Positions 52,566 to 57,521 of a stretch of DNA of 64,000 nt are shown here, one piece after another. A program made the translations under genes and the position numbers. Under the pieces are notes generated by a model. That model had not been told where the DNA came from and did no database searches. It was given only the letters and a program-made list of their open reading frames with translations. This stretch comes from Acidimicrobiaceae bacterium (lineage in GTDB: Bacteria; Actinomycetota; Acidimicrobiia; Acidimicrobiales; Ilumatobacteraceae): NCBI GenBank assembly GCA_947446815.1, contig CANFGT010000005.1, forward strand, positions 1 to 64,000, read 5' to 3'. The stretch's first letter is position 1. Every line of letters begins with the position of its first letter.

Positions 52566-53675
52566 ATGCGTCGTCGTCTGATTGCCCCCGCCATCGTCCT
52601 TCTTACCGTTTCACTTGTGGGCTGCGGTAAAGCTCAACAAGCGTCCGACAAAGTCACTCAGCCAAAAGATGACCTGAGTTCTGACAATTTGAATAACCCG
52701 TCAGACTCGGATGCTGGTCAACTGAAAGCTGCTGATGCGTGCAAGTCAGGCAAGAAAATTTCTGGCCATCCTGTTCAAATCGTGACCACAGTGGCACCGC
52801 TCACAAACCTCATCGGCCTGATGGTGGCTGGCACCAATATCCAAGTCAGTGGCATCGTTCCCGAAGGAACAAATTCGCACACCTTTGAACCTCCGCCCAG
52901 TGCAGCTTCAGTGGTGGAGAAAGCAGACATCGTTTTTGTCAATGGTCTTGGTCTTGAGGACCCGACGCTTGATCTTGCAAAAGCCAACGCCAAGAGTGCA
53001 GTGATCTGTGAAATCGGAACCGCTGTGTTGCCGAAGGGTGGCTGGTTATTTGATGATTCATTCCCGATTGCGGCAGGTAAGCCCAACCCTCATCTGTGGA
53101 CAAGCCCGTTTCAGGTTTTGAACTATCTCAATGTGATTCGCGATGCGCTCGTGGTTGCAGATCCAGCAGATATGTCCAAGTTCGACGACAATTACGTCAA
53201 GATCTCTGGCGTTGCAATGCAACTTGACCAAGCAATCAAGACTGATACAGACACCGTGCCAAAGTCGAACCGCAAGTTGCTGACCTACCACGATGCCTAT
53301 GCCTACTTCGCAGAGCGATATGGCTACACAATCGTTGGCGCCATTCAGCCACAGTCTTTCGAAGAGCCATCTCCCAAAGACATTGCCAAGATTATTGATC
53401 AGGTCAAGAAGGAACATGTCGTCGCCATCTTTGGTAGCGAAGTATTTCCTTCTCCGGTACTTGAGCAAATCGGCAAAGATACCGGGGCCCGTTATGTCGA
53501 CACGCTTCGAGATGATGACCTGTTAGGTAAGCCAGGAGATGCCGACCATTCTTGGGCAGCTCTTATGCGTTCGAATTACATCACGCTGGTGAAAGCACTT
53601 GGTGGCGATGCGACCGCATTGACGGCTGTCAAGACAAACATTGGGATCACTGATAAGGCGTACTACCCACAGTGA
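52566..53675 (+). CDS. Zinc/manganese ABC transporter substrate-binding lipoprotein
   Basis: 369 residues. A lipoprotein signal (LLTVSLVGCGKA, Cys20) is followed by an acidic, Asn/Ser-rich stretch (25-70) and a cluster A-I binding protein: QIVTTVAPLTNLIGLM, IVPEGTNSHTFEPPPS (first metal His), GKPNPHLWTSPFQVL (second His), LLTYHDAYAYFAERYG (third His) and AIFGSEVFPSPV (acidic ligand). It captures Zn, Mn or a similar metal at the cell surface for the transporter encoded by the next two genes. It lacks the His-rich loop of ZnuA proteins. Confidence 0.92.
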   Translation: MRRRLIAPAIVLLTVSLVGCGKAQQASDKVTQPKDDLSSDNLNNPSDSDAGQLKAADACKSGKKISGHPVQIVTTVAPLTNLIGLMVAGTNIQVSGIVPEGTNSHTFEPPPSAASVVEKADIVFVNGLGLEDPTLDLAKANAKSAVICEIGTAVLPKGGWLFDDSFPIAAGKPNPHLWTSPFQVLNYLNVIRDALVVADPADMSKFDDNYVKISGVAMQLDQAIKTDTDTVPKSNRKLLTYHDAYAYFAERYGYTIVGAIQPQSFEEPSPKDIAKIIDQVKKEHVVAIFGSEVFPSPVLEQIGKDTGARYVDTLRDDDLLGKPGDADHSWAALMRSNYITLVKALGGDATALTAVKTNIGITDKAYYPQ

Positions 53676-54463
53676 CAGCTGACATTCTGGTGGAATGCGC
53701 ACACATCACTTGTGCGTATGACTCCACCGTGGCAGTGCATGATGCGCATGTCACGATTCATCGCGGTGATTTTGTAGGCATTGTCGGGCCATCGGGCTCT
53801 GGGAAAACGACTCTTCTCAAGGCGATTCTTGGCGCAGTGAAGCCAGTTGAGGGACATGTCACGAAGAAGCCTGGACTTCGCATGGGGTATGTGCCTCAAG
53901 TGGAATCCGTCGACTGGAATTTTCCGGTGACAGTGCTGGAAGTGATGGCAATGACTCGAACCACCGGCCGTTTCTTTCCACGCGTCAGCGTTGGGGAAAG
54001 AACAGAGGCTTTGGAAGTTCTGGAACGTTTAGGTCTTGGTGGACTAGAGAATCGTCACATTCGTGAACTCTCGGGCGGCCAACAGCAGCGCGTATTCGTT
54101 GCACGTGCGCTTTTTCATAAGCCTGAACTTCTTGTCTTGGATGAGCCGACCTCTGGAGTCGACGTGCGGACACGCCATGAGGTGTTGCACCTACTTGCAG
54201 ACCTGCACGATGACGGCGTATCGATAGTTCTAACTACGCACGATCTCAATGGTCTCGCTGCTCACTTGCCGCGACTTGTCTGTATGAATACATCTGTAGT
54301 GGCCGATGGTGCACCTATTGACATCTTGAACTCTGATGTTCTTGAAAAAACATATGGCGCGCCGATGGAAGTTTTAATTCATGGCGGAATGCCGATTGTG
54401 GTGGACAACGGTGGCGACACAATCGCTCGTCGCCTCGGTGAACTCGGGGAAGTAGACCAATGA
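53672..54463 (+). CDS. Metal ABC transporter ATP-binding protein
   Basis: 263 residues, from a GTG whose GTGA overlaps the previous stop by 4 nt. Walker A is GIVGPSGSGKTTLLKAI (about 33-48), the Q-loop VGYVPQVE lies near 77, the signature LSGGQQQRVFVARAL near 132, Walker B LLVLDEPTSGVD and the switch His in VLTTHDLNG. The metal-type ATPase subfamily (ZnuC/MntB/SitB) is supported by EVMAMTRTTGRFF and the order with a binding protein and a permease. It powers import of the metal bound by the lipoprotein. Confidence 0.95.
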   Translation: MTADILVECAHITCAYDSTVAVHDAHVTIHRGDFVGIVGPSGSGKTTLLKAILGAVKPVEGHVTKKPGLRMGYVPQVESVDWNFPVTVLEVMAMTRTTGRFFPRVSVGERTEALEVLERLGLGGLENRHIRELSGGQQQRVFVARALFHKPELLVLDEPTSGVDVRTRHEVLHLLADLHDDGVSIVLTTHDLNGLAAHLPRLVCMNTSVVADGAPIDILNSDVLEKTYGAPMEVLIHGGMPIVVDNGGDTIARRLGELGEVDQ

Positions 54464-55308
54464 TGATTTCCGGAATTCTTGATCCGTATCACTATCAATT
54501 TTTTACCAACGGAATTTTTGTTGCAACGATTGCCGGAGCCCTCTGTGGACTTCTTGGAGTTTTTGTCGTGCTCCGTGGAATGAGCTACATCGGTCACGGT
54601 TTGTCTCACGCCGTCTTTGGTGGTGCAGCAGCATCTGCAGTGATGGGTCTCAACTACTTTGTCGGTGCCGGAATCTGGGGAGTGTCATCTGGTGTCATCA
54701 TCGGGCGAATTGCTCGGAGACGGTTAATCGGAGCTGATGCCGCAATCGGTGTTGTCACAACTGCGTCATTCGCAATGGGCTTGGCATTGTTGAATCGTTA
54801 TGGGCAAGCAAAGAAGAGTATCGAAGCAGTCCTGTTCGGCAGTGTGCTTGGCGTGCAGACGGCAGACATCGTCGCAGTGCTTTTGGTGGCAATTGTTACT
54901 GCGCTCATTGTGTTTGGTTTGTACCGGCACCTGTTGTTTGCAACCTTTGATCCTGAAGTTGCACAGGTCTCAGGCGTGCGAGTCGCATGGATGGAAGCAC
55001 TCCTGATGGGAATGTTGTCTCTCACCATTTTGGTGACAATGCGCGTGATCGGAACCCTCTTGATTTCAGCGCTGTTGGTGATTCCGGCTTCTGTTGCACG
55101 TATGTTGACCAACTCGTTCTCGAGAATGCTCTGGATCTCTCCATTGATCGGTGCTGTATCGGCCTTTGTGGGTATGAACCTTTCGTATCACCTGGATACA
55201 TCTGCAAGCGCCACCATCATTCTGGTAGGAACACTGCAATTCATCGTGGTGTATGCAGTCTCGGGCTTACGCGGACGCTCACGCATCGCTCATCTTCACC
55301 ACGTGTAA
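54460..55308 (+). CDS. Metal ABC transporter permease
   Basis: 282 residues, ATGA overlap with the ATPase stop. About eight membrane helices; the N-terminal ATIAGALCGLLGVFVVLRGM and YIGHGLSHAVFGGAAASAVM are the ABC-3 permease signature, with GRLIGADAAIGVV-type loop (RLIGADAAIGVVTTASF) and RVIGTLLISALLVIPASVAR further on. It forms the membrane channel of the zinc/manganese-type importer. It ends 6 nt from the stop of the convergent fusion gene. No Zur or MntR box could be recognised upstream of the operon. Confidence 0.94.
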   Translation: MMISGILDPYHYQFFTNGIFVATIAGALCGLLGVFVVLRGMSYIGHGLSHAVFGGAAASAVMGLNYFVGAGIWGVSSGVIIGRIARRRLIGADAAIGVVTTASFAMGLALLNRYGQAKKSIEAVLFGSVLGVQTADIVAVLLVAIVTALIVFGLYRHLLFATFDPEVAQVSGVRVAWMEALLMGMLSLTILVTMRVIGTLLISALLVIPASVARMLTNSFSRMLWISPLIGAVSAFVGMNLSYHLDTSASATIILVGTLQFIVVYAVSGLRGRSRIAHLHHV

Positions 55309-55314
55309 GAATTT

Positions 55315-56637
55315 TTAGAGGTTCCACTCCACGCCATCGGCGGTGTCGCGAACTTCAATTCCGATGTTCACAAATGCATCACGAATGACATCAGAGAGGT
55401 CGTAGCGCTTCTCCGCACGAACTGTGGCGCGAATCGCGAGCATGGCTTCGACATATGGCGAGACAACATCGCGAGGATTGCGGACACCGCTGACAGCAGC
55501 ATCGCCCAATCGACTAATCATTGAACGAATGGCAGCACGAGCACGGTCGGCAACGTCGCTTGTGAGTGTGTCGGTGGACCAATCTTGAACGGCTTGTTCT
55601 AATGCCAAACATGCACGCACGGCGGAGTCCGCATCGCGATTCGCAATCGCGTCATCGAATTCCTGTTGATGAATTTCTAGGGCATCTCCAAGGCTTCCAG
55701 GATGCTCACCACTTCGCGATGCGCTCTGCGAGCGAACATCGCTCGTGGCGACATCCTGCGCCTTTGACATTCCCGCAAGATTCGTCGAGGCATTGCCGAG
55801 CGAATCCGATTGCGATGCGGAATTCAATAACTGCCAGGGATTCTGGAGAGTCGCCAAGGGGATGGTCGTGCCAGATTCGAAGTTGAAAGAGGTGCCGCGC
55901 AGGCGAAGCGTGACTGTGCCATTGCCCACCACGGCAGCTGACTCGGCATCAATGTCAATGACAAGTCCTGTGTGCTCGTCCACTCCGAGGACATAGGTCT
56001 CGTCGTCGAGCAACTTCTCGAACATGAGAAGTCGCGCTTCGCCGAGGTAGCAATAGCGCGTGTCGTGATTGGCGCCTTCTGCATTGTCATAGTGGGGGAT
56101 CACAGCAGCGTTAATGCCGATAGCGGACAAGATGTCAAGTCCATCGAGAAGTTGCACGTCCTGTCCAACTTTGTAGACCTCGTATACCGGGACTGTCGCT
56201 TTGCCTAATGTGAGCGCAGCTGCAGAGGCGAAGGTGACGATTCCGCCATTCAGCAATTTGTCGGTGATGTTGTGCGCAACAGTGGAACCACTCCATTGGC
56301 GTAATGCATATGTGGGTGAGCCTGGACCTGCAAAGACATAATCAGCGTCGATGATTGAACGAAGGCCTCGTTCGACTTGAACAGGGTCTGCTGCGATGTG
56401 AGTGTCATGGAGACGGACGAGCCCTGCAACGTTGATGTCGACATTGACTGAATTTCGGAAGTATTCGACGGCTCGTGATGCGAGCTCTGGCGCGTTCTCC
56501 TGAAATCCGTAGGGCGTATCCAGTAGCACTGCATTGACAGGCTTTGGCAGCAAGGCTGTCAACTTGCGATGTGTTGAAACCATTGTGGGGGCTGTTTCGC
56601 CCGAGCCCATGATGGTGAGAATGCGAGGAAGGCTCAT
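55315..56637 (-). CDS. S51-like amidotransferase-fold protein fused to a CysRS-type C-terminal tail
   Basis: 440 residues. Residues 1-240 look like a class-I glutamine-amidotransferase/peptidase E (S51, cyanophycinase-like) domain: ILTIMGSGETAPTM, DADYVFAGPGSPTYALRQW, and a candidate nucleophile Ser in IVTFASAAALTLGK where family members have a GxSAGA elbow. A Ser/Gln/Asn linker (about 265-315) follows. The last 120 residues are helical and end RYDLSDVIRDAFVNIGIEVR plus DTADGVEWNL, which closely follows the end of cysteinyl-tRNA synthetase. There is no HIGH or KMSKS part. The role is unknown; binding of tRNA or a Cys-like ligand by the tail is conceivable. It overlaps the upstream hydrolase by 4 nt. 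Confidence 0.8.
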   Translation of the reverse strand: MSLPRILTIMGSGETAPTMVSTHRKLTALLPKPVNAVLLDTPYGFQENAPELASRAVEYFRNSVNVDINVAGLVRLHDTHIAADPVQVERGLRSIIDADYVFAGPGSPTYALRQWSGSTVAHNITDKLLNGGIVTFASAAALTLGKATVPVYEVYKVGQDVQLLDGLDILSAIGINAAVIPHYDNAEGANHDTRYCYLGEARLLMFEKLLDDETYVLGVDEHTGLVIDIDAESAAVVGNGTVTLRLRGTSFNFESGTTIPLATLQNPWQLLNSASQSDSLGNASTNLAGMSKAQDVATSDVRSQSASRSGEHPGSLGDALEIHQQEFDDAIANRDADSAVRACLALEQAVQDWSTDTLTSDVADRARAAIRSMISRLGDAAVSGVRNPRDVVSPYVEAMLAIRATVRAEKRYDLSDVIRDAFVNIGIEVRDTADGVEWNL

Positions 56638-57521
56638 GAGAAGAATCCTGTTGTGATTGCATCGTCAACGACGGCAGCAAAGCGTTCGGGGAATTGCGCG
56701 TGTAAATCGTGGTCGGCGGGCTCAAACCATTCGACTCGCGCGCGTGGCAGTACCCGCAGAGCAAATGATATTTGTTCACGCTTGGAGCGAGTGAAGTCGT
56801 CTTCTTGCTTTGCGGCAGGGGTGAAAAGAACGGGAACATTTATGTTCTCCCACAGAGTGGAAGGGATGTGTTGCCATAATCCGTGGAGCACTTTGAGATG
56901 GCGTTCCATTGTGAGGTGAGGGCGAATGGTGCCATCGGCAAGAAGTTCCATGTTGTGCATCTGGCCATCGATTGCTTCTTCTGACCAATCGGTATGGGCA
57001 CCGCGAATGTATGAACGCAAACGCTCATATTGCATGCCGGCGAGGGCGGGTGGTCGAAGTGTGCGTTCACACTCATCCCAGTTAGGAAATGATTTGGACA
57101 ATTCGATGGTGCCACCATCAACTGCAACGATTCCGCGAATGAGGTCGCCGTGGCGATGAGCAAGTTCAACGACGAGGTTTCCGCCCCATGATTGACCAAT
57201 CACAAGGGGCTTTTGAGAAGCAGATTGGTGTGGCTGCAACAAGGTGATGACTTCAGCAATGTCGTCAGCAACGGCGGTCAATTCGTATCCAGTGTCAGGC
57301 TTGTCACTTAACCCGTGACCGCGTAAATCAATTGCGATGACTGCGTGACCGAGCGTTGCAAGATGGCGAGCAGGCCCATCCCACAGGCGGGCATTGGAGG
57401 CAAGGCCATGAACGAGAAGGATGGGAATGCCAGGGGAGTCCTCTGGCCGAGACCATTCCAAGATACGTAGTTGGGTGCCATCGCTCAGGCCGATGAAGCT
57501 CGAGGTGGGAGTCAATTCCAT
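56634..57521 (-). CDS. Alpha/beta hydrolase
   Basis: 295 residues. The canonical fold is visible: PILLVHGLASNARLWDGPA, VIAIDLRGHGLSDKPD, nucleophile elbow VIGQSWGGNLVVELAHR (Ser near 113), an internal cap region and the catalytic His in WFEPADHDLHAQFPE. The QSWGG elbow is common in esterases and in proline-iminopeptidase-like hydrolases. The substrate is unknown. It overlaps the start of the fusion gene downstream by 4 nt (ATGA), so the two are probably translated together. It is divergent from the LLM gene at 57618, with 96 nt between starts. Confidence 0.91.
   Translation of the reverse strand: MELTPTSSFIGLSDGTQLRILEWSRPEDSPGIPILLVHGLASNARLWDGPARHLATLGHAVIAIDLRGHGLSDKPDTGYELTAVADDIAEVITLLQPHQSASQKPLVIGQSWGGNLVVELAHRHGDLIRGIVAVDGGTIELSKSFPNWDECERTLRPPALAGMQYERLRSYIRGAHTDWSEEAIDGQMHNMELLADGTIRPHLTMERHLKVLHGLWQHIPSTLWENINVPVLFTPAAKQEDDFTRSKREQISFALRVLPRARVEWFEPADHDLHAQFPERFAAVVDDAITTGFFS

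Follow-up and report, generated by a model that had tools for sequence, protein, structure and literature searches.

Positions 55315–56637 of the window (the whole stretch of 64,000 nucleotides that was analyzed) are occupied by one ATG-to-stop open reading frame of 440 amino acids, which runs on the minus strand from 56637 to 55315, the plus strand being full of stops over the same interval. Profile searches and a structural model identify its product as a fusion of an S51-type serine hydrolase with the C-terminal region of cysteinyl-tRNA synthetase (CysRS), and the gene is single-copy in its own genome. On this strand, the coding sequence is composed of a domain of the S51 peptidase E/cyanophycinase type (residues 1–266; 55840–56637), which includes the putative nucleophile S138 (56224–56226), the putative catalytic histidine H182 of an IPH motif (56092–56094) and the putative third triad residue E221 of a GVDE motif (55975–55977); a variable linker (residues 267–314; 55696–55839), disordered in the model with pLDDT below 50 at 281–310; a helical bundle homologous to the C-terminal bundle of CysRS (residues 315–409; 55411–55695), recognized from a profile of the tail and from four helices in the models; and a CysS_C alpha/beta anticodon-binding domain (Pfam PF23493; residues 393–438; 55324–55461), which was placed by this Pfam family, by residue mapping to Escherichia coli CysRS and by conservation, and contains R403, R407, Y412, D416, R419, D431, and W438.

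Upstream on the minus strand lies a gene encoding an alpha/beta hydrolase of 295 amino acids (56634–57521). Because its TGA stop and the start codon of the fused gene share bases (ATGA at 56634–56637), the two genes are probably translationally coupled, as the first-pass annotation of this DNA had stated, and junction sequences show the same overlap in relatives. A survey of genomes for the fusion and its neighbors returned 132 homologs with the fusion. Of 92 loci with sufficient sequence upstream, 61 have a homolog of the hydrolase, which lies on the same strand and nearly always directly upstream, in other families and classes as well; it is thus the usual operon partner. This hydrolase is a generic member of its kind, whose closest solved relatives are esterases and a haloperoxidase. 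The other neighbors vary among lineages, and beside the fused gene at the relatives' loci no genes for translation, cysteine or mycothiol were found to recur. In the window, a zinc/manganese-type ABC transporter operon (binding protein, ATPase, and ABC-3 permease; 52566–55308, plus strand) is convergent with the fused gene, and gene clusters for transporters of this type recur at more than 50 relatives' loci. On Streptomyces plasmids (L158, 12257–21254; L160, 5042–14626; L161), the surroundings of the homolog differ from those in the other lineages: genes close to it encode DUF4331 proteins, a "nickel transporter," a TPR protein, and a class F sortase. Membership in a defense system was considered and rejected: PADLOC gave only a weak Cas10d match, to the helical part (E 8e-4), which we judged to be due to chance.

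The N-terminal half had been read from the letters of the sequence as following the S51/cyanophycinase plan with a serine elbow (FASAAALTLG, residues 136–145), and structural comparison bears this out. An AlphaFold2 model of the fused protein built from a 29-row alignment has a pLDDT of 82, with most of the S51 part above 90. A Foldseek search with this model gave 20 matches at E ≤ 0.001, the top 20, and all of them are S51 enzymes. In VIA-align comparisons, residues 1–266 matched 6nqc, an acI-B1 cyanophycinase-like exopeptidase, with a Z of 24.3 (230 aligned residues, rmsd 2.8), and the cyanophycinases (CphB) and peptidase E (PepE) with Z of 19–23. The 29-row family profile also matched the sequence of 6nqc (E 1.4e-6). 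Pfam Peptidase_S51 (PF03575) gave 15.4 bits for the window protein alone (E 0.015; gathering cut-off 23.9) and was matched by 20 of the 29 relatives at E ≤ 0.1 (best 3.5e-6), while the cyanophycinase model TIGR02069 of NCBIfam gave 16.6 bits, below its equivalog cut-off of 126.6. In the predicted structure, residues 1–266 have the S51 peptidase E/cyanophycinase fold. The word "amidotransferase," initially attached to this half as well, is apt for the distant fold class only, the putative nucleophile being a serine.

In the profile alignment, S138, H182, and E221 face the serine of GCSAGA, the histidine of VIPH and the glutamate of GIDE in 6nqc, respectively, and each of the three is invariant in the 132 distinct family members (132/132). 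The triad of peptidase E is Ser120/His157/Glu192, and the third residue is Asp in the MccG clade (clade V) of the family (PMC9239234); this Asp was found in none of the 132 members, all of which have Glu at the position of E221. The fused protein thus shares its fold and its putative Ser-His-Glu triad with S51 enzymes such as peptidase E, CphB, 6nqc, and MccG, with about 16–19% identity in structure alignments to S51 structures. It differs from them in its nucleophile motif (FASAAA, vs. CSAGA in 6nqc), in segments that are invariant in its own family (DTPYGFQEN, PGSPTYALRQW, and HDTR.CYLG) and in the added CysRS-derived tail. One genome that carries the fused gene also encodes a separate S51 homolog (L185; G215:C96:38998–39405, in a 272-residue open frame), which matches the N-terminal part of the profile only.

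The relation of the C-terminal half to CysRS was found by several profiles. Pfam CysS_C gave 19.6 bits for the window protein alone (E 0.001), under its cut-off of 23, and was matched by 28 of the 29 relatives. The 29-row family profile matched the solved CysRS 8qhp over about 130 positions (E 8.9e-10), and a profile made from the tail only matched residues 362–486 of the same structure over 120 positions (E 4e-12) and residues 340–459 of E. coli CysRS (E 3.8e-8). Because Pfam matches in relatives combine with these profile E values against CysRS and 6nqc, the affinities of both halves are beyond chance. The first-pass annotation had confined the likeness to CysRS to the last 25 or so residues; the homology stands, and its extent is about 125 residues, of which 411–440 form the CysRS-like end, the "helical region" noted ahead of it being the CysRS helical bundle. 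Judged by these sequence matches, residues ~315–440 are homologous to the whole CysRS C-terminal half, the helical bundle and the alpha/beta anticodon domain together. The fused protein matches only C-terminal positions 318–464 of the NCBIfam CysRS model (TIGR00435), and the class I catalytic core of CysRS is absent from it: relative to CysRS as seen in 1u0b, it has the whole C-terminal half in common, with the G34 contact residues conserved, and bears a serine hydrolase in place of the Rossmann catalytic core.

When modeled alone (pLDDT 89), the tail shows four long helices, one that is shorter, and a beta hairpin. Foldseek places the CysRS–tRNACys complex 1u0b first among its matches (probability 0.99, 127 columns, E = 0.023), followed by a match at 0.69. 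Overall superposition on 1u0b is poor (rmsd 14.9), and VIA-align did not list CysRS among the matches of the tail, which were mainly generic helical bundles over model residues 1–75; the missing CysRS carries no weight against homology because the sequence match, which is the firm evidence for this relation, stands. The profile of the fused family (A1) also matches CysRS genes in many Actinomycetota genomes (E 1e-4 to 1e-15); 13 of these loci and the CysRS of the same genome were checked, and all are full CysRS, 39–45% identical to that of E. coli. In phylogenetic analysis, the tails of the fused proteins group into one clade apart from CysRS (support 97/94; 98% of bootstrap trees), and the fusion therefore probably arose once.

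The 1u0b complex is described as having G34 of tRNA-Cys hydrogen-bonded by Arg427 and Asp436 of E. coli CysRS, stacked on Trp432, and linked via water to Asp436 and Arg423 (PMC12684709, citing Hauenstein et al. 2004). Alignment to the CysRS of the MG1655 genome, with which the tail-profile alignment agrees, maps the contacts so described, Arg427, Asp436, Trp432, and Arg423, to R407, D416, Y412, and R403, respectively, in the fused protein. Among 132 distinct full-length homologs, whose identity to the window protein ranges from 35 to 100%, an aromatic residue at 412 and both R403 and D416 are each present in 132/132 and R407 in 131/132 (one Lys); R419, D431, and W438 are likewise found in 132/132. 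In a 60-row tail alignment, no more than 8 of the 129 residues in the first row are invariant (F327, L377, R403, R407, D416, R419, D431, and W438). This set includes R403, R407, and D416, for which the chance expectation, calculated by hand, is C(8,3)/C(129,3) = 1.6e-4. The helical bundle is shortened or largely lost in many distant members, those of a lineage whose genomes measure about 1 Mb included, and the pocket is kept. Moreover, the CysRS of Ilumatobacteraceae no longer has the residues that correspond to R403, D431, and W438, all three of which the fused protein keeps, so these residues are not strictly needed by the fold; the pocket may still be kept partly for fold stability. This conservation lends support to the tRNA-linked role that had been raised as an idea from the sequence and, with both putative active surfaces conserved, suggests an enzyme acting on tRNA-Cys or its cargo.

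In a comparison of the CysRS genes at G000:C3:85913–87271 (L183/L200) and at loci L201–L226, the CysRS of Ilumatobacteraceae is without equivalents of E. coli R423, D451, and W458 in its C-terminal anticodon domain; in that of other Acidimicrobiales, mostly only W458 is missing. We considered that the fused gene might compensate for a weak CysRS and found no clear link, as the loss in other Acidimicrobiales, mainly of W458, occurs whether or not the fused gene is present.

Every member that reaches the start of the family profile also reaches its end (132/132), which makes the tail an obligatory part, and the fusion, kept by 132 homologs down to 35% identity, is by this comparison conserved and no accident. 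It was found in Acidimicrobiia, in further classes of Actinomycetota and in Streptomyces and Nonomuraea, whose homologs are 38–40% identical to the window protein. A match was present in 43 of 61 near relatives and in 10 of 30 genomes of another order. Counted by a strong N-terminal match (larger raw tallies include CysRS genes), the family occurs in at least 85 of the 247 genomes sampled from the same class and at least 29 of the 396 sampled from the phylum. In the lineage with genomes near 1 Mb, whose size and class would fit Candidatus Actinomarinales, all eight genomes that are at least 90% complete carry the gene. Full-length matches among 72,556 plasmids were in Actinomycetota only, a search of phages gave zero full-length matches, and the scan of genome contigs covered its best 80 loci; the family has so far been seen in Actinomycetota only, and its limit to this phylum is provisional. 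Several metagenome-assembled genome records titled Bifidobacterium breve or Ferrithrix thermotolerans (L040, L056, L065, L066, L073, L083, and L087) carry a gene of the Ilumatobacteraceae type, 54–69% identical to the window protein, and their names are probably wrong. Where a gene is annotated at the matched loci, it is called "hypothetical protein."

The first-pass annotation knew of no described protein with this pairing, and neither do the sources we searched: no Pfam or NCBIfam family scored above cut-off for the fused protein, searches in the full text of open papers yielded no description of an S51–CysRS tail pairing, and those for CysS_C/YqeB nothing relevant. Nor did the papers so searched show a tRNA-Cys-specific proofreading or recycling factor. 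Each half is already known, and the combination is new.

We propose that the fused protein is an S51-fold serine hydrolase aimed at tRNA-Cys and acting on the acyl group of this tRNA, a reading to which, taken as a whole, we give a probability of about 0.4. The CysRS C-terminal half, split from the synthetase core, would bind tRNA-Cys via G34 of the GCA anticodon, and the S51 domain, tethered by the flexible linker, would use Ser138, His182, and Glu221 to hydrolyze the acyl group on it, which may be a short peptidyl group or an aminoacyl group that is wrong or modified. The fused protein would then count as a freestanding deacylase or peptidyl-tRNA hydrolase specific for tRNA-Cys. We consider it fairly probable from the sequence that the tail binds tRNA-Cys, and offer more tentatively, as a guess guided by chemistry and precedent, that the enzyme acts on the group which this tRNA carries. 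The homology of the tail to CysRS, the invariance of pocket and triad, the retention of the gene in genomes of about 1 Mb and the single clade of the tails all speak for a tRNA-Cys hydrolase. On the other hand, the known substrates of S51 enzymes that PMC9239234 names are all amides (Asp-X dipeptides, cyanophycin, and isoaspartyl-nucleotides) and not tRNA esters. The alpha/beta hydrolase and the other neighbors give no pointer to translation, which also counts against this reading. The anticodon domain of CysRS lies far from the CCA end, so that the tethered S51 domain would have to reach the acceptor end. In the general view, CysRS requires no editing, and a natural wrong substrate is for this reason hard to name. 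Freestanding trans-editing factors are standalone hydrolases that clear aminoacyl-tRNA, some of them using features of the tRNA (PMC11415595). YbaK, AlaXp, ProXp, and DTD resemble the fused protein in idea only, their folds being unrelated; unlike them, the fused protein would, in its proposed activity, find its target through the complete module with which a synthetase binds the anticodon.

The main sceptical rival to a tRNA-Cys hydrolase is that the tail no longer binds RNA and has been reused, on an ordinary S51 peptidase, as a module for structure or for docking to proteins. The erosion of the helical bundle in several lineages and the modest E of the tail against CysRS–tRNA in Foldseek (0.023) would fit such a module, but the most conserved positions of the tail are the anticodon contacts and not the bundle, and these are kept even in organisms whose CysRS lacks some of them, so we regard it as unlikely. 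The main functional rival, also rather unlikely in our view, is a sensor of cysteine supply, in which binding of charged or uncharged tRNA-Cys to the tail would act as a switch for an S51 peptidase that cleaves free small peptides or conjugates and releases amino acids when they are needed. The same conserved G34 pocket would serve such a sensor, the S51 fold is a peptidase fold, and the neighbor is a second hydrolase; however, the structure shows no sign of a switch, regulatory or cysteine genes do not recur at the relatives' loci, and the adjacent Zn/Mn-type transporter genes are no more than a gene neighborhood.

A detoxifier resembling MccG appears improbable. It would cleave aminoacyl- or peptidyl-nucleotide antibiotics directed against a tRNA synthetase, and the piece of CysRS would serve it for docking or as a decoy; S51 enzymes of clade V do cleave isoaspartyl-nucleotides, most of them as standalone proteins (PMC9239234). 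However, the third residue of the triad, Asp in clade V, is Glu in the fused family, a small molecule needs no anticodon reader, and presence in all near-complete genomes of the ~1-Mb lineage fits housekeeping better than immunity. An enzyme of mycothiol or Cys-conjugate chemistry, suggested in the first-pass annotation through the mycothiol ligase MshC, a CysRS paralog with a homolog in the same genome (G000:C6:7251–8381), is very improbable, as mycothiol genes were not seen beside the fused gene and MshC, here and in relatives, has a CysRS-like core and ends before the CysS_C domain, the opposite composition to that of the fused protein, which indicates that the tail derives from CysRS and not from MshC.

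The family spans several classes of an important phylum, yet the matched loci with an annotated gene give it as "hypothetical protein." A conserved hydrolase joined to an apparently intact reader of the GCA anticodon, and kept in genomes near 1 Mb, points to a proofreading or recycling factor for tRNA-Cys or to a sensor based on this tRNA. Hydrolysis guided by a tRNA would, if shown, make the family categorically new. We suggest, tentatively, that it could be the first anticodon-guided serine hydrolase of translation, stripping wrong or modified aminoacyl groups or peptidyl groups from tRNA-Cys; if this is true, Actinomycetota would have a step of quality control for cysteine that is new to biology so far as described.
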